Source of the DNA: Chlorobiaceae bacterium
GTDB taxonomy: Bacteria; Bacteroidota; Ignavibacteria; UBA10030; SZUA-254
Reading direction: 5' to 3'
DNA: 64,000 nucleotides
Assembly: GCA_013824245.1 (NCBI GenBank)
Contig: PNNN01000018.1
Coordinates: forward strand, 60,351 to 124,350
Positions 51,144 to 59,096 of the stretch are shown one piece after another; positions within the stretch are counted from its first letter, which is position 1; every line of letters begins with the position of its first letter. Under the pieces are notes generated by a model. It was not told the origin of the DNA. It was given only the letters and a program-made list of their open reading frames with translations, and ran no database searches. The translations under genes and the position numbers were made by a program.

Positions 51144-51926
51144 TTATTTTAGCATTAACATTTTCTTTACAAGTTGTACGCCATCCGATTTTACCTGATA
51201 GAAGTACGTCCCGCTTGAAACCACGCCGCCATTCTCGTCTTGTCCGTTCCATTGGATTGTGTATGATCCCGCATGCTGTGTAGTATTTAATAATGATTTT
51301 ACTAAACGGCCATTGATATCATAAATTCCTATCTCAACATTTCCTTGCTTGGTAATTTTGTATTCAATGTTTGTATTAGGGTTGAATGGATTAGGGTAGT
51401 TTTGAGAAATCGAGATGTTTTCAGGAAAGCCCTGTGTTTTCTCGACGAGATCGGGTGGAAGACCATGGTGATATTTTGTAATAAAAGCAACATAGTAACC
51501 ATAATTGTCAGAAAAATCCTTGTCATTAATTCCCAAATATAATTCTCCTATCACGTTTGCCTTAAAGCTACAATTTTTCCCGATATAAAACGTAGTTCCA
51601 GTAGAGCCTATTTTGCCAATTACAGAATGTGATGCCGCTCCAGGTAATGGACCATCCGGTGCCATCATCCAATCTGGACCACCCATTCCTTCTGGACCAA
51701 TCCATAAATCAGTATTTGAAACTGTATTACCGTTTGTTGCGGCAACTCCTTGTACAAGTATGACATAACTACTATCTTTTGTTAATATGATGCCCGTAGA
51801 GGTCCACGCTTCTGTATTACTCACTACAACTGCAGGGAAACCTAAATTACCAATCGGAGTGATGTCTTGCGCAAAACTTGCAGCATAAAAAGCTAAGAAT
51901 ACAAAAAAAATAGAAAAACGGAACAT
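51144..51926 (-). CDS. Secreted protein with type IX secretion sorting domain
   Basis: About 260 residues from the ATG at 51926, which has AAGGAAG in front. A signal peptide (FSIFFVFLAFYAASFAQ) leads to an unrecognised beta-rich domain with LGFPAVVVSNTEAWTSTG and TFYIGKNCSFKANVIGELYLGIND. The final 75 residues are a Por type A sorting domain (SQNYPNPFNPNTNIEY, YDINGRLVK, QWNGQDENG, VSSGTYFYQ) that directs export by the type IX system and attachment to the surface. The central domain may bind sugars or be an adhesin, which is a guess. Confidence 0.88.
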   Translation of the reverse strand: MFRFSIFFVFLAFYAASFAQDITPIGNLGFPAVVVSNTEAWTSTGIILTKDSSYVILVQGVAATNGNTVSNTDLWIGPEGMGGPDWMMAPDGPLPGAASHSVIGKIGSTGTTFYIGKNCSFKANVIGELYLGINDKDFSDNYGYYVAFITKYHHGLPPDLVEKTQGFPENISISQNYPNPFNPNTNIEYKITKQGNVEIGIYDINGRLVKSLLNTTQHAGSYTIQWNGQDENGGVVSSGTYFYQVKSDGVQLVKKMLMLK

Positions 51927-52153
51927 AAAACTTCCTTTCAAAATGTTTGGTGGATTATGATGTGAATTCATAATACACTAGTTGCAAACATAAAATGTTG
52001 CGGAAAAATTCAGAAAATATCTTTTGATGCAAGTATGAAATGCGTAAATGTTGAGAAATTGGCAAGAAATGAAGGAAGTGCGTCGGGTATCCCATTGGTT
52101 GATTCTCAACGTCATAATTACTACATTTATAATGAGAATTAAAGGAATTGATC

Positions 52154-52399
52154 ATGAGTGAACAAGAATTATTATCCCGCATTAAGATTGTTCCGGGTGT
52201 ATGCGGAGGCAGACCGACAGTCCGTGGGCTGCGTATTACAGTTTCAAATATATTGGAACTCCTTGCGGGGGGAATGACTGAACTTAAGATTTTAGAAGAA
52301 TATCCATATTTAGAACGTGAAGACATTCAAGCTTGTCTGAACTATGCTTCACGTCTTTCATCATTTTCAAGTGAACCATTAGCCGCCACGCAGGTATGA
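52154..52399 (+). CDS. DUF433 antitoxin-like protein
   Basis: An 81-residue protein with the DUF433 pattern: RIKIVPGVCGGRPTVRGLRITVSNILELLAGGMTELKILEEYP followed by LEREDIQACLNYA, a small winged-helix-like DNA-binding fold. It lies in front of, and overlaps by four bases, a DUF5615 PIN-like gene, the usual partner in predicted type II toxin-antitoxin modules. AAGGAATTGATC precedes the start. Confidence 0.9.
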   Translation: MSEQELLSRIKIVPGVCGGRPTVRGLRITVSNILELLAGGMTELKILEEYPYLEREDIQACLNYASRLSSFSSEPLAATQV

Positions 52400-52749
52400 A
52401 TTGGTTAGTCGACGCTCAACTTCCTCCACACTTGTGCAAATGGCTCAAAATAAAAGGTGATTATTGCATCCATGTTTCTGAACTTCCAAGCGGTATACAA
52501 CTTCCCGATGAAACACTCTGGCAGTATGCAAAAAAAGAAAATCTTATAATCATATCGAAAGACAGAGATTTTTTCGATTTTTCTATTCTTCGGGGTTCGC
52601 CGCCTCAAATTCTATATATCAATGTAGGCAATTGTTCAAACGATCGCCTTTTGAAGATAATGAATCATGTTTGGAAGGAAACAATAAAAGCATTCGCGGC
52701 TGGAAATTCTTTAGTTATTATTACTCAATCTGGAATTCAAAAGTTTTAA
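52396..52749 (+). CDS. DUF5615 PIN-like toxin
   Basis: A 117-residue PIN-like protein. WLVDAQLPPHLCKWL carries the first acidic residue and IISKDRDFFDFSIL the second acidic cluster typical of the Mut7-C/DUF5615 fold; PQILYINVGNCSN follows with the conserved polar position. It is predicted to be an RNase toxin neutralised by the DUF433 protein encoded just before it. Activity has not been shown for most members. Confidence 0.88.
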   Translation: MNWLVDAQLPPHLCKWLKIKGDYCIHVSELPSGIQLPDETLWQYAKKENLIIISKDRDFFDFSILRGSPPQILYINVGNCSNDRLLKIMNHVWKETIKAFAAGNSLVIITQSGIQKF

Positions 52750-52833: not shown

Positions 52834-54258
52834 TTAGTGTTTCACCATCGTCCATTCTTTCCGCCATTTTTTGCCGTCCCAGTAGCGGATATTGTTTTTA
52901 AGATTGTCGAGATAAGGTTGGTCAATTTCTCCCGCGAGCTTACCCTTATTTACCATATTAGCGCGGAACCTGATGATGGCAGAATTTGATTTTACTCTCC
53001 TAATTTTCAAATTCTTCGAAAAATAAAAATCAAATCCTAAATCTTGCTCTGCATAATCCCCGCTTATTGGAGAAAAAAAGGAGATATCGGATTCACTTTC
53101 AACATTCATACTATTTACTTGTGGAATACATTTTAGCTGATCATTTATGTCTGATCGTGGAAAACGTATGTAAAACAATTCGGCATCAGAAAATTTCCAA
53201 TTGAAACCTGGACAGGCAGTTGATTTTGTGTCACCGATAATTTTTAACGGATCAATAACTGCAATGACCGGATATTCTTGATTGATTGAATCGGGTGTAT
53301 CATTTTTTCCACAAAGTACAAGTTCCTCTTTTCCATCATTATTCACATCGAGTGGGAACATGCTCATAAAATATCCAAAGTGCCAATATCTTCCAATTTC
53401 ATTCCCTTTTTCATCGAGCCGAGCTACAAATGCTGGTGAACGCCCAATATTTTCAGTGATTAAAATGATTTCTTTCTTTTCCTTATTTTTAAAATTATTT
53501 ACCACTATTCCATCGGGTGAAAAATTTGGACTGTATGTTCTATTCAGATAATTAAAAGGAACCACAAATTCTTTTTCTAAAATAATTTTCTTATATGCAT
53601 TCAAAATTTTTAAAGAATGTTCACCTTCTTTTCTAAGCGAAATATTGGTAATCACTTCATTTGTGTCATTATTGTCTATATCGCATAGCACTGTTGAAGA
53701 TCTTTTGACCAATCTATCATGGTTAAATCGTTCCAAGAGACCTGGTGAAATTATTTCCCAGAGTTTTTCATCTTGTTTGTTATATATTTCCAACATATTC
53801 GCATTTGTATTGTACAAAAAGCTGGATGGATTCTTATCGGTTATAGCATTATCTTTCGCAACCGGTTTAATAAAATCATTCAACAACCACCCGACTACGA
53901 TGAACGATGCAAAACTGCTAATTGAAACCGCAACCGGATGCCGGCGTACAAAATAAAACATTTTTGCAAGCGGTGTATTTGTGTGGTAACGTACCGGCGG
54001 CGCAAACGGGTCATAATATTGCTCAACTGCTTTGTTTATACGAACTAAAGCTTTGCTTTTTTGAGTACCGTTTTTTACATAATTTTTGCTTATTTGAAGA
54101 GAATCTTCGGCGTTTTTATAAAACGCTTCCATCTGCCCGGCAAGCGTACGGCAGCCGCGACATTCTTTAAGATGCGCTTCAATCTCGGCAATCTGTTCTT
54201 TTACGAGATCGGAACCGAGCACGTATAATTCTATTGTATGTTCATCTATATGGTGCAT
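52834..54258 (-). CDS. Anti-sigma-like membrane protein with FG-GAP-like periplasmic domain
   Basis: The ATG at 54258 is chosen; a longer frame reads a palindromic repeat. The N-terminal 35 residues hold HLKECRGC, an H-x3-C-x2-C zinc-finger motif of anti-sigma factors. A membrane helix (VAVSISSFASFIVVGWLL, about residue 108) separates the cytoplasmic part from a large periplasmic domain with FG-GAP/VCBS-like calcium repeats (DIDNNDTNEV, DVNNDGKEELVLCG). The layout suggests an envelope sensor that holds a transcription factor. Its gene lies 172 bases after the stop of the sigma-like gene on the same strand. Confidence 0.7.
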   Translation of the reverse strand: MHHIDEHTIELYVLGSDLVKEQIAEIEAHLKECRGCRTLAGQMEAFYKNAEDSLQISKNYVKNGTQKSKALVRINKAVEQYYDPFAPPVRYHTNTPLAKMFYFVRRHPVAVSISSFASFIVVGWLLNDFIKPVAKDNAITDKNPSSFLYNTNANMLEIYNKQDEKLWEIISPGLLERFNHDRLVKRSSTVLCDIDNNDTNEVITNISLRKEGEHSLKILNAYKKIILEKEFVVPFNYLNRTYSPNFSPDGIVVNNFKNKEKKEIILITENIGRSPAFVARLDEKGNEIGRYWHFGYFMSMFPLDVNNDGKEELVLCGKNDTPDSINQEYPVIAVIDPLKIIGDTKSTACPGFNWKFSDAELFYIRFPRSDINDQLKCIPQVNSMNVESESDISFFSPISGDYAEQDLGFDFYFSKNLKIRRVKSNSAIIRFRANMVNKGKLAGEIDQPYLDNLKNNIRYWDGKKWRKEWTMVKH

Positions 54259-54269
54259 ATTTTCTTCTT

Positions 54270-54331
54270 TTGTAGGACGGAATGTTATTCCGTTCACCTA
54301 TTAATGATCGATTCAGCGAATCGATCTACAA
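54270..54331. repeat. Composite palindrome TTGTAG...CTACAA
   Basis: TTGTAG (54270-54275) and CTACAA (54326-54331) enclose two small hairpins: ACGGAAT with ATTCCGT (54277-54293), and GATCGATTC with GAATCGATC around AGC (54306-54326). It lies just upstream of the FG-GAP gene and belongs to a repeat family in this window with TGTAG/CTACA ends. Confidence 0.75.
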
Positions 54332-54365
54332 ATAACTAATTGCATTTTTAAGCTATTGCGTAAAT

Positions 54366-54430
54366 ACCCTCACCCTGTCACTTCGTGACACCCCTCTCCC
54401 GATTCGGGAGAGGGGTTACAGGGTGAGGGT
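54366..54430. repeat. Cruciform-forming dispersed repeat
   Basis: ACCCTCACCCTGT (54366-54378) pairs perfectly with its complement (54418-54430). The interior folds into a CAC-TTC-GTG hairpin and a strong CCCCTCTCCC...GGGAGAGGGG hairpin (54391-54415). Words of this type are dispersed in many bacterial genomes. It touches the stop codon of the sigma-like gene and may act as its terminator. Confidence 0.8.
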
Positions 54431-55455
54431 CAATTCTCTTTCAATCTTCTCACCGTCTCCTTATTCGCCTGCTTCAATAAATACTCAATCTTATTTCTGT
54501 GGCTTTTCTTGTAATCTTCTTTTGTTAAATCGGGCGACAGCTTTTTTAAACTTTCGTAAAGCGAAAAATTGTGTCCGTCTTTTCCTGTAAATATTTCGCA
54601 CAGTTCTTCTTCAAGCACAATGAAATATTTTTCAAACATATCTTTGGATACTTTACCTTTTTCAACATATTTTATTTGATTTTTATTCTTAATGTCTTCA
54701 CAAACATTTTTTATAGTTGCAGATGTATCGCTTGCAACAAGTTCTGCATCTTCCATAACAACCTGATTTGGTAAATCTTGACGGCAGTTATAAATCGAAC
54801 GGAAAAGAATTGCAACTGTAACAATCGGTATAACGCGGCAGTGTTCGTTTTGCTCGCGAAGGTAAAGAGATAGTTTTGCCATCAACTCGGGTACCAATTC
54901 ATACCCTGTTGTAAGAGCGGCAAATTTTTGTTCCAGCAGATCGCGATCGATTATCGGATAATTTTCAAGTGTGTCGCATGCGCACGGGACGATACATGCT
55001 TCTCCGAACCGTTCCACCTCATTATAATTTTTCAAAATGTTTACTGCAATTTTTACATTGCGGATAATTTTTGCGAGCGACGGATCTGCCTCGCTGTATA
55101 AACGATAGATTCCCTGATTGACTTTCGAGAAAACGAGTCGGCGCAGATATGCAAGAATTTCTTCATCTTTCGCCGCAGTCAAAGAAAGACCTTTGAAATA
55201 TGATAGCAACTGGATATAATTACCGTCAGCGTCTTTTTGAAATAGATCGGCGATGCAGTCGTATGCTAAATCGGATGTGCTCAAACCGTATGTGCCACTT
55301 AACGTGCCTGCTGTTGTTTTGCTGGCAAGGAACGAGTTGGCAAGCGTGTGCGAAACTGCAATGAGCCGGTTCAACTGGTCGTGCGTGTACGAGCCGGCAA
55401 GAATTGCCAGAATATTCTCCCTTAAATTTTTAGAAAGATGTAAATACTTCGACAC
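54430..55455 (-). CDS. Unrecognised protein with sigma-region-2-like segment
   Basis: I do not recognise a named family. The 341-residue protein is cytoplasmic and mostly helical. Residues about 58-120 (STSDLAYDCIADLFQKDADG, then DEEILAYLRRLVFSKVNQG) have the spacing of sigma region 2: a DLAxD...DLF helix followed by a helix and an R/K-rich pairing. No canonical region 4 is seen; the C-terminus is very basic (KKSHRNKIEYLLKQANKETVRRLK). The gene following on the same strand encodes a zinc-finger, membrane-spanning FG-GAP protein, so a divergent sigma/anti-sigma pair is plausible. Confidence 0.5.
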   Translation of the reverse strand: MSKYLHLSKNLRENILAILAGSYTHDQLNRLIAVSHTLANSFLASKTTAGTLSGTYGLSTSDLAYDCIADLFQKDADGNYIQLLSYFKGLSLTAAKDEEILAYLRRLVFSKVNQGIYRLYSEADPSLAKIIRNVKIAVNILKNYNEVERFGEACIVPCACDTLENYPIIDRDLLEQKFAALTTGYELVPELMAKLSLYLREQNEHCRVIPIVTVAILFRSIYNCRQDLPNQVVMEDAELVASDTSATIKNVCEDIKNKNQIKYVEKGKVSKDMFEKYFIVLEEELCEIFTGKDGHNFSLYESLKKLSPDLTKEDYKKSHRNKIEYLLKQANKETVRRLKEN

Positions 55456-55554: not shown

Positions 55555-57421
55555 CCACCAATACCGGTATCTTCAATTTGTGGCGAACCTTAGGTACTGT
55601 TGTTCCGAACAAAATATCTTTCAATCCGCTGTGGCGGTGACCGCCCATGATGAGTAGATCGATTTGCGTTTCGTTTGCAAGCATTACAAGTTGTTTGGGA
55701 ACGTTGCCGAATCCGAGATGAGTGTGAACTTCAAAACCGAATGTACGAAGTTGGTCTGAGATATTTTCAATATGCTCTTTGTCGCTTCGTGCTTCATCGT
55801 CAAATGCTTCTTTCCCAAAAAGTTGTCCGCTTACTCCTTCAACAACATGGAAAAGATAAATTGCGGCATGATGATGCTCTGCGATTGATTGAGCGTGAGA
55901 GAGAATTTTCTCTTCCATCCCGCCAAAATCTAAAGCAACGCCAATTTTAGTGTATGTTTGATGCGAAAGCGAAAGCGATGGGATTGGCATAGTAACTTCT
56001 CTCCTTTTCCTCCATAATTTCGGAAATGTCATATACATGAGTAAAATTGTACAGCCAAGAATAAATGGCACGGCTGTAATCCAAATCCAGATTGCATTGC
56101 TGCCCGCCGCTTCAATCCATTCTGATAAAACACCATAAACTAACCGTGCATTGAGCGTGATAATAACTACTGCCGCAGTCCATGCAAGAATTAAAACCCA
56201 TTTCTTGTTTGCGAATTGTTTCATGCGTATTTTATCGCTTGTGAAGTGAATCAACGGAACAACTGCGAACGGGAGCTGTAAGCTTAAAATAACCTGACTG
56301 AGAATAAGAAGTCCGTACGATCCCTCATCGCCTTGTACCGCAAGAACAATTACTGCCGGAATAATTGCAAGCATCCGCGTTATGAGCCGACGTATAACCG
56401 GACGCATTTTGAATTGCAGGAATCCTTCCATAACAATCTGTCCGGCAAGTGTACCGGTAAGCGTTGAGCTTTGCCCCGCGGCAATTAAAGCAAGCGCAAA
56501 TAGTGTGCTGGCGATAGCTGTTCCAAGAAGCGGTGTAAGAAGACTGTGCGCTTGCTGGATTTCCGTTACAACGATTCCGTTTTTATAGAAAACCGAAGCG
56601 GCAACTATAAGAATTGCGGCATTTACAAAGAACGCGGCATTAAGCGCTATTGATGTATCGAGAAGGTTCCAACGGCATGCCTGCTTTTTGCAATCGTCGG
56701 TTTCGCATACGTCGCGTGTTTGTACCAGCGCAGAGTGAAGATAAAGATTATGCGGCATCACTGTTGCACCGAGAATTCCGATTGCAACATATAAACTTTC
56801 GGAAGTCAGATGGGGAACAAATCCTTTGGCAACCTCTCCCCACACCGGTTCGGCTAAAAATATTTCAATACCGAAACACAATCCGATAGTCGAAATCAGC
56901 ATAACGATAAACGCTTCAACTTTTCTGATTCCAAAATTTTGAATGATAAGAAAAAGAAAGGTATCAAATCCGGTTATGATAACGCCGTATAAAAGTGGAA
57001 CGTTCAATAAAAGATTCAAGCCGATAGCCGTACCGAGAACTTCGGCAAGATCGCAGGCGGCAATTGCAATCTCGCAAAGCACCCATAAAATGAACGCGAC
57101 GGGCTTCGGGTAATTCTCGCGGCACGCCTGCGCAAGATCTCTTCCTGTAACAATTCCCAATCTTGCCGAAAGAGTTTGCAGTAAAACAGCAATCAGGTTC
57201 GACATCAACAAAACCCAGATGAGAGAATAACCAAACCGCGCGCCGCCTTCGAGGTCAGTTGCCCAGTTACCGGGGTCCATGTAGCCCACGCTAACGAGAT
57301 AGGCGGGACCGAGGAATGCGAAGAAGCGTTTAAATGTTCCCACATTTTTCGGAATAGAAACCGAGCGATGAACCTCGGAGAGAGACTGAGATGTTTGATT
57401 GTCCTTTGTAGAAGGATTCAT
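55550..57421 (-). CDS. mntH: Nramp-type Mn/Fe transporter fused to a universal stress domain
   Basis: The first 455 residues form an eleven-helix Nramp transporter with DPGNWATDLEGG (metal-binding D and N in helix 1) and VMPHNLYLHSALVQ (helix 6), moving Mn2+ or Fe2+ with protons. The last 150 residues are a UspA domain (KIGVALDFGGMEEKIL...MGGHRHSGLKDILFGTTVPKV). Standard MntH proteins are about 410 residues and lack it. The ATG at 57421 overlaps the DUF5131 stop by one base. The cytoplasmic Usp part may bind nucleotide and gate transport; this is inference. Confidence 0.93.
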   Translation of the reverse strand: MNPSTKDNQTSQSLSEVHRSVSIPKNVGTFKRFFAFLGPAYLVSVGYMDPGNWATDLEGGARFGYSLIWVLLMSNLIAVLLQTLSARLGIVTGRDLAQACRENYPKPVAFILWVLCEIAIAACDLAEVLGTAIGLNLLLNVPLLYGVIITGFDTFLFLIIQNFGIRKVEAFIVMLISTIGLCFGIEIFLAEPVWGEVAKGFVPHLTSESLYVAIGILGATVMPHNLYLHSALVQTRDVCETDDCKKQACRWNLLDTSIALNAAFFVNAAILIVAASVFYKNGIVVTEIQQAHSLLTPLLGTAIASTLFALALIAAGQSSTLTGTLAGQIVMEGFLQFKMRPVIRRLITRMLAIIPAVIVLAVQGDEGSYGLLILSQVILSLQLPFAVVPLIHFTSDKIRMKQFANKKWVLILAWTAAVVIITLNARLVYGVLSEWIEAAGSNAIWIWITAVPFILGCTILLMYMTFPKLWRKRREVTMPIPSLSLSHQTYTKIGVALDFGGMEEKILSHAQSIAEHHHAAIYLFHVVEGVSGQLFGKEAFDDEARSDKEHIENISDQLRTFGFEVHTHLGFGNVPKQLVMLANETQIDLLIMGGHRHSGLKDILFGTTVPKVRHKLKIPVLVV

Positions 57422-58212
57422 CAAGCGGAGATTCGTTGAGAGAGTTTATTTTCGTTAATATTCTTCTGTGAATATTTCGAATTAAAATTTTCATCTATTG
57501 AATTTCTGGATGGCATCTCATTATATATTTTTCCATCAAGCATCCTTCCATTTTTCTTCTTGTGAACACCACCCCATTGTTTAAAGAAAAATGGCACACT
57601 GTTGTTTTTACACTGCTCTCGAATATTTCTCACCCATTCCGGGGACATTGTTCTTGCTTTGGGTCCGGATTCACCACCGACAATTACCCAATCGATTTTA
57701 TCAAGGGGGATTGTCGAAATCTGCCCAAGCAAAGGCTCCAATGAGATGAATCGGACAACCGAAGGAACTTGCGCAAGATCATGTACTCGTGAGATATAAT
57801 CTTCGGACTCAACACTTACACCCATCCAAACATTTTTGGGCCAAATCAGGATTGGAGCAAGCAAACGTAATCGATCTGAGCGTTTTGTTAAAATCTGAAA
57901 AGTATGGTGGTTTGCCTTATCCATCATCCGGAATACCTTTTGAATGTACTCTGTGGGAATTTTTTCATGAAATAGGTCGCTCATTGAATTTACAAAAACA
58001 ATCCGCGGTTTCCTCCATTTTAGTGGCAGCGCAATAACATCTGGGTGTAGAGTTACTTTAAATCCACTGTTATAGGAGGGCGAACCCATCGCCTGCAATC
58101 TCTTTGCAATACGTTCAGCATAACAATTTTTACATCCTGGGCTGACTTTCGTGCATCCCGTTATAGGATTCCACGTTGACTCAGTCCATTCTATTTTTGA
58201 TCTATCTGCCAT
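57421..58212 (-). CDS. DUF5131 (phage Gp37/Gp68-like) three-cysteine protein
   Basis: A 263-residue member of the DUF5131 family. It begins SKIEWTESTWNPITGCTKVSPGCKNCYAE with the three cysteines C20, C27 and C30, a radical-SAM-like arrangement with C-x6-C-x2-C, followed by VFVNSMSDLFHEKIP, TKRSDRLR, WMGVSVES and GGESGPKARTM. Proteins of this type are encoded beside TcmP proteins in phages and bacteria, as here. The reaction is unknown. It overlaps TcmP by 11 bases and the transporter gene by one. Confidence 0.9.
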   Translation of the reverse strand: MADRSKIEWTESTWNPITGCTKVSPGCKNCYAERIAKRLQAMGSPSYNSGFKVTLHPDVIALPLKWRKPRIVFVNSMSDLFHEKIPTEYIQKVFRMMDKANHHTFQILTKRSDRLRLLAPILIWPKNVWMGVSVESEDYISRVHDLAQVPSVVRFISLEPLLGQISTIPLDKIDWVIVGGESGPKARTMSPEWVRNIREQCKNNSVPFFFKQWGGVHKKKNGRMLDGKIYNEMPSRNSIDENFNSKYSQKNINENKLSQRISA

Positions 58213-59044
58213 TTGAAAAATCTAATGTTCCTTGATTGAAGCTACCTAATATTGCTTTATTCCAAAATTCAATACCCTTTTTATCCCTTGAATAGAATGC
58301 TAGATGATATAATGGTACATTATTTTGTTGAAGCTTTATTCGTTTGGGATTTCCTTTCATATATCCTAATTTAAACATTTGTCTTTCAAATTCCGAAATT
58401 AAGAATCTAGAAAAATTACTATCTTTCTTTGAATGGTCTGTCCACCCGCTACGCCAATCTGCGATTCCAAGAAACTTTTCAATTTTGTCGTTTGATGGTT
58501 TCAAATAGTTTGGGATGTTTCTTTTGACATCCATGCCAAAAGCTAAAAGAACAAGAAAATCCACAAATTTCGCTTCTGCTAGAATTTTAATGGTAGAATA
58601 ATATAAACCAATGTCAGGTGGATCAACAAAACAAAAAGATAATACTTTTTGTGTCTTTGAATGCTTCGGTATAGCTTTTATAATCTCTGATATTCTATCA
58701 TTACAGTTTCCAACAATGTAGGAAATGTCGGAAGATACATTCAACTGCTCTATCCTGCGCTTTAAGATGTCTATATTTTCAGAATTAATATCACAGTAAA
58801 TATATTTATCAAACGGATCCTTTACCGTCAATACCAACAACGGTGATCCTGCAAAAATCTTCTTAGTCCCTTTTATTTTAAAGCACCCTGGGCCGCTATA
58901 TAAATCTATAAACACCCTTTTATCCCATTTTTGTTTCATCCCTTTCGAAAATAAATTAAGATAGTAGGAGAGTAATTTGTACTTATCGATCGAATAGTTA
59001 CCTCTCTCAAAACATTTTAAATTATCGTTTGATAGTTCTAACAT
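58202..59044 (-). CDS. tcmP: Three-Cys-motif partner protein TcmP
   Basis: About 280 residues, starting at the ATG behind a perfect GGAGG. FIDLYSGPGCFKIKGT, GSPLLVL, YIYCDINSENIDIL, FCFVDPPDIGLYYSTI and LLAFGMDVKRNIP match TcmP, a methyltransferase-like Rossmann protein defined by its neighbourhood with the three-cysteine DUF5131 family, which indeed follows. Function unknown; a nucleic-acid or small-molecule modification role is guessed from the fold. The A+T-rich composition suggests recent arrival. Confidence 0.88.
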   Translation of the reverse strand: MLELSNDNLKCFERGNYSIDKYKLLSYYLNLFSKGMKQKWDKRVFIDLYSGPGCFKIKGTKKIFAGSPLLVLTVKDPFDKYIYCDINSENIDILKRRIEQLNVSSDISYIVGNCNDRISEIIKAIPKHSKTQKVLSFCFVDPPDIGLYYSTIKILAEAKFVDFLVLLAFGMDVKRNIPNYLKPSNDKIEKFLGIADWRSGWTDHSKKDSNFSRFLISEFERQMFKLGYMKGNPKRIKLQQNNVPLYHLAFYSRDKKGIEFWNKAILGSFNQGTLDFSNGR

Positions 59045-59096
59045 AAATCCTCCAGATAAAAATTTACATTTTAACAATAATCAATAATTATATTGT

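Follow-up and report, generated by a model that had tools for sequence, protein, structure and literature searches.

We analysed a 64,000-nucleotide stretch (the window) of contig PNNN01000018.1, positions 60,351 to 124,350, from the 3.23-Mb genome of a Chlorobiaceae bacterium of the Ignavibacteria (GCA_013824245.1), focusing on two adjoining minus-strand genes, here termed A and B. The features of these genes, in window coordinates, are as follows; the likenesses to sigma regions 2.2 and 2.3/2.4 were judged by eye.

54430..55455, minus strand: gene A, an open reading frame (ORF) with a GTG start for a 341-residue sigma-like protein, the constant neighbour of the zinc-finger gene
55240..55278, minus strand: region-2.2-like helix of A, residues 60-72, TSDLAYDCIADLF
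55087..55167, minus strand: long helix of A resembling regions 2.3/2.4 (residues 97-123); R105, R106, and R118 are conserved
55033..55086, minus strand: conserved stretch that follows the sigma2-like part of A (residues 124-141), with D124, R132, and N133 nearly invariant
52834..54258, minus strand: gene B, a 474-residue zinc-finger, membrane-helix, and beta-propeller protein, likely the anti-sigma-type partner of A
54073..54258, minus strand: N-terminal anti-sigma-type (ZAS-like) helical domain of B, with model helices at residues 7-14, 18-33, and 35-63
54151..54174, minus strand: H-x3-C-x2-C motif HLKECRGC of B, residues 29-36
53848..53937, minus strand: predicted transmembrane helix of B, preceded by a basic FVRRHP stretch, with the N-terminus predicted inside
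52987..53823, minus strand: predicted periplasmic beta-propeller of B, FG-GAP/VCBS type
53656..53682, minus strand: FG-GAP-type acidic loop DIDNNDTNE of B (DxDxDG-type)
53323..53349, minus strand: FG-GAP-type acidic loop DVNNDGKEE of B (DxDxDG-type)

The ORF listed for B spans 52834-54297 with a GTG start at 54297; the start shared by the family is the ATG at 54258, which gives the 474-residue protein.

The two genes form a conserved pair. Among 60 genomes of the same order, A had matches in 37 and B, with a few weak ones, in 40. Of the 78 A matches, 69 were followed on their own strand by a B match no more than 8 kb downstream (two genes broken into pieces are counted twice among the 69), and in 59 of those 69 the distance was at most 300 bp. 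The nine unpaired A matches comprised seven partial ones, one at a contig end, and one that was nearly full-length (G018:C70). The window genome contains three A-B pairs, and G002, the sole other sampled genome of the genus, has neither gene. A was found in 18 of 148 genomes of the phylum, and the system is therefore patchy and accessory. In an Ignavibacteriales metagenome-assembled genome, relatives of A (HY964_01490, 85% identity) and B (HY964_01495, 39% identity) carry consecutive locus tags. In a scan of named genomes we found 28 loci, 13 of which are also in the same-order set so that the two counts overlap; the ORF next to A contained HxxxCxxC in 25 of them, with CxxC only in one (L098) and a contig edge in the other two. 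The motif occurred in the first 80 residues of 0/229 control ORFs (at least 120 residues, all frames, 40 control stretches). A previous sequence-only reading of this locus had proposed the pairing and named its occurrence in related genomes as a check, and there the pair proved strongly conserved.

B carries the Hx3Cx2C signature of class I zinc anti-sigma factors, flanked by predicted helices 18-33 and 35-63, and the H, C, and C of the motif together with an upstream H were invariant in 39/39 aligned relatives. The Pfam model zf-HC2 matched window B with an E value of 0.0032 (18.0 bits, under the 22.2 cut-off) and 20 of the 39 relatives at E ≤ 0.1. The motif and a single hydrophobic helix, whose best 19-residue window (hydropathy 1.92) is at model residue 109, were as the sequence-only reading had described them, and two DxDxDG-type loops are present. 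The calcium-repeat (FG-GAP) domain of that reading fared less evenly: Pfam FG-GAP gave no match in window B at E ≤ 1, yet the structural model of B has a predicted propeller fold and FG-GAP_3 matched 25/39 aligned relatives at E ≤ 0.1. No recognised extracytoplasmic function (ECF) sigma factor lies beside B, its neighbour being A, which has no Pfam sigma match. We do not count B among the confirmed class I anti-sigma factors; anatomy and context support the view that A and B work like a sigma factor and such an anti-sigma factor.

A belongs to a family that has no name; it had 143 relatives at E ≤ 0.001, the best 120 of which were listed. In a 36-row alignment widened to KSB1 and Neomarinimicrobiota, conservation was highest at residues 60-72 (score 0.689), followed by residues 124-141 (0.612) and 97-123 (0.582). 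Across 52 family members, D66 was invariant (52/52), residue 70 was D or E (52/52), and R105, R118, R132, and N133 were nearly invariant. SDLAYDC of A was placed by eye against the DLVQEV part of ECF region 2.2, and YLRRLVFSKVN against region 2.3. According to the extract of PMC8999054 consulted (all papers cited here are represented by extracts), the acidic DAED motif of ECF region 2.2 contacts beta'.

The AlphaFold2 model of A had a mean predicted local distance difference test score of 86. In VIA-align, the predicted fold was closest to sigma factors, with sigma chains making up 42/50 rows, and in a viral library search they had the three best probabilities among the matches shown. The outcome that the earlier reading had named as refuting, a predicted fold unrelated to sigma region 2, did not come about. 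A second group of results lends no support to a sigma identity. Foldseek alone gave no significant match for the model, and Pfam sigma models matched 0/52 family members at E ≤ 1. HHalign comparisons of whole and partial A profiles with an ECF alignment from the window genome, run with reversed controls, reached at most about 8% probability; the best lines (3.4 to 8.1%) fell on the sigma4 part and spanned 19 columns only. When the N-terminal part of A was compared with the sigma2 part of the genome's ECF profile, the reversed control scored higher, leaving the by-eye alignment unconfirmed. The extended A profile matched no sigma factor among PDB sequences, nor in the window genome at E ≤ 10. 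For region 4, which may or may not be present, there was no Pfam match in the 52 members, and VIA-align rows spanning nearly the whole model had root-mean-square deviations of 10.5-17.5 Å. Because the sequence searches for sigma factors were all negative, A was not filed in the sigma70 family. Of the protein first described, the 341-residue ORF stands, and its region-2-like helices appear in the predicted fold only.

Two other labels for A were set aside: an RA_2 Pfam line (best E 0.016; 3/52 members) was taken as chance, and the name "MerR regulator" on relative P0010 was unsupported by the Pfam search of the family. A divergent 181-residue ECF-like sigma factor (L079, G000:C20:23772-23963), which falls just short of the Sigma70_r2 cut-off (23.2 bits against 24), may, judged by eye only, link family A to the ordinary ECF factors.

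Two further layouts accompany A. In the split layout, found in L098, in L107, and in nine loci of same-order genomes (L108, L109 twice, and L110-L115, with L097 denoting the contig of L114), the gene for a large sensor (715-847 residues) follows. A separate small gene between A and the sensor was listed in all split loci except L115, with HxxxCxxC in all of those except L098, and this zinc protein has no membrane helix. Ser248 and Lys300 were invariant in 11/11 sensors, forming the Ser-Lys dyad in an S16-type domain, and a profile of the 11 sensors matched the LonB proteolytic domain 1z0e (E 3.1e-9). At E ≤ 0.1, Pfam Lon_C matched 5/11 sensors and FG-GAP_3 matched 9/11, and no SAVED family was listed among the 11. 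The split-layout sensor is a Lon-type protease domain linked by a predicted membrane helix to an FG-GAP propeller. In the other layout, KSB1 records L099 and L105 and the similar L100 and L102 encode a zinc protein of 214-215 residues with no membrane helix, followed in L099 by two REC-DUF4388 proteins; in L100, L102, and L105, the ORFs after the zinc protein include some with beginnings like those of the L099 REC-DUF4388 proteins. Since A and the zinc protein remain constant while the sensor varies across layouts, this comparison is the strongest argument for the zinc protein controlling A. L099 also encodes a protein of 170 residues that matched nothing in Pfam or NCBIfam and whose beginning looks GTPase-like by eye.

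On balance, we favour the view that A, whose predicted fold in part resembles sigma domain 2, is held inactive at the membrane by B until an envelope signal frees it for RNA polymerase. The sigma/anti-sigma pairing put forward in the sequence-only reading is supported in part, by conservation and by the predicted fold in VIA-align; the sequence profiles showed no homology to sigma factors, and Foldseek alone gave no significant match. We infer a mechanism in which A would act as a divergent sigma-type factor that binds RNA polymerase and promoters, while the zinc domain of B would bind zinc and grip A at the membrane. The outside propeller would sense an extracytoplasmic ligand or calcium and, on meeting it, change its own state or expose B to cleavage. 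In the split form, by analogy with CalpL-CalpT-CalpS, the propeller would turn on the Lon domain, upon which the soluble zinc protein would be cut and A freed. Alternatively, A could be another new helical DNA- or RNA polymerase-binding regulator that is sequestered in the same way by the zinc domain of B, in which case the switch would be real and its output would differ. This explanation seems to us unlikely, though worth keeping in view: it is opposed by the sigma chains that fill 42/50 VIA-align rows and rank first to third in probability among the viral-library matches shown, and zinc anti-sigma domains are known to bind sigma factors (extract of PMC7406223).

Genes downstream of the pair offer candidate targets.

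51144..51971, minus strand: type IX secretion cargo gene, the next same-strand gene downstream of B and a candidate target (TIGR04183, E 1.8e-11; Por_Secre_tail, E 1.3e-9)

A type IX-tailed protein lies within about 3 kb downstream at all three A-B loci of the window genome. In a comparison covering either strand within 1.1 to 4.1 kb downstream of B, a type IX or LamG-type protein was found by regular expressions in 18/40 stretches versus 4/40 controls (Fisher p 8.7e-4). The 40 stretches (139.9 kb in total) were chosen by us from the 69 paired matches and include the fused layout only; the 40 control places (159.9 kb) were selected manually, for the most part from those contigs. Some of the short matches (81 and 99 residues) may be false. 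Pfam detected Por_Secre_tail in 8/10 chosen neighbours. Type IX and LamG-type genes are numerous in genomes of this order, and the enrichment is about fourfold over this high background. These results suggest that surface proteins may be regulated, and the neighbouring type IX-secreted proteins may be among the targets of the A-B switch.

The clustering of secreted and type IX cargo genes near the pair would also fit an arrangement in which the zinc-binding domain of B has a structural role and both proteins work in envelope biology or type IX secretion instead of transcription, A being an adaptor in the cytoplasm; the zf-HC2 match of window B, being under the cut-off, points the same way. We regard this as improbable: in the split and REC layouts, a zinc protein with no membrane helix stands beside Lon-type protease or response-regulator proteins, which fits signalling, and the highest conservation in A falls at residues 60-72 and 97-141. 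Least credible is that B is the anti-sigma factor of an ordinary ECF factor encoded elsewhere, with A as an accessory or release factor: the 15 Sigma70_r2 matches of the genome (14 over the cut-off) speak for it, but A is the constant neighbour in 69/78 cases and also in KSB1 and Neomarinimicrobiota records.

We compared the A-B system with known regulators. Like ECF factors paired with class I zinc anti-sigma proteins (ASDI/ZAS; for example RpoE-ChrR and SigW-RsiW), A and B are adjoining genes, with an N-terminal Hx3Cx2C helical domain and a membrane helix, as is often found, in the one protein and a region-2.2-like acidic segment in the other. In the survey of PMC7406223 (extract), at least one membrane helix was present in about 65% of anti-sigma proteins. 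They differ from these pairs in that A has 341 residues and no detectable sigma70 match or recognised sigma4, and in that the sensor of B is a predicted FG-GAP-type propeller. The split layout shares with the CRISPR Calp system (CalpL Lon protease, CalpT anti-sigma, CalpS sigma) genes for a sigma-like protein, a zinc anti-sigma-type protein with no membrane helix, and a Lon-domain sensor, and in Calp the anti-sigma factor is reported to be cleaved by the Lon protease (extract of PMC12751052). Here, in contrast, the sensor is a predicted transmembrane FG-GAP propeller, no SAVED family was listed among the 11 sensors at E ≤ 0.1, and the Lon domain best matches LonB. An anti-phage reading was set aside after a PADLOC search with A, B, and a single one of the 11 Lon-propeller proteins found nothing at E ≤ 0.01.

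The RsgI anti-sigma-I factors of cellulosomal Clostridium are likewise membrane anti-sigma factors that sense extracellular substrates (extract of PMC12203970), and the earlier reading's contrast with the usually small anti-sigma factors already known does not distinguish B. RsgI differs in working with sigma-I. It is not known to have a zinc motif or FG-GAP propeller. PorXY-SigP also ties sigma factor control to type IX secretion in Bacteroidetes (extracts of PMC4800418 and PMC7712824), but there a two-component system governs secretion components via an ECF factor, whereas the neighbours here are cargo proteins. Among the open-licence papers listed, we found none on the A-B pair, on a Lon-propeller sensor beside an anti-sigma gene, or on an FG-GAP sensor joined to a zinc anti-sigma-type domain, in agreement with the novelty first claimed for the last; the extract of PMC2668756 was unrelated to the FG-GAP/anti-sigma combination.

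A-B would be a gene switch of a type missed by the standard sequence searches tried. More tentatively, and with the odds somewhat against it, A could found a second lineage of RNA polymerase specificity factors, invisible to sequence searches and spread through Ignavibacteria, KSB1, and Neomarinimicrobiota. Zinc anti-sigma proteins would keep such factors locked, and exchangeable sensors would release them, among these a transmembrane receptor with an FG-GAP propeller outside and its own Lon protease inside. If A is of sigma type, an entire family of regulators escapes surveys that detect sigma factors by Pfam regions 2 and 4 in the environmental lineages carrying it. The split layout, if true, would be a one-protein transmembrane signalling protease (propeller outside, membrane helix, Lon inside) and a new route for regulated sigma release. 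With three paralogous pairs in a single genome, all of them upstream of a gene for a type IX-tailed protein, the switching of surface proteins in uncultured Ignavibacteria would become testable.

A search for an autoregulatory promoter upstream of 35 A genes, a set that takes in uncertain start codons, was negative: the commonest dyad was shared by 4 sequences, within the maximum of 3 to 5 reached in 40 shuffles. Between A and B lies the following repeat, which may be a hairpin, perhaps a dispersed hairpin element.

54392..54414, no strand assigned: inverted repeat core CCCTCTCCC-N5-GGGAGAGGG, a pattern also found at two other places in the genome

Elsewhere in the window, DUF433 and DUF5615 (PIN-like) genes at 52148-52749 on the plus strand, between B and the type IX cargo gene and on the strand opposite to them, are likely a toxin-antitoxin pair. 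On the other side of the A-B pair, 57421-59077 on the minus strand encodes a radical-SAM-like protein (rSAM_mob_pairA, below the cut-off) and a three-Cys-motif partner protein (TcmP), which match the PADLOC candidate defence models PDC-M41B and PDC-M41A.
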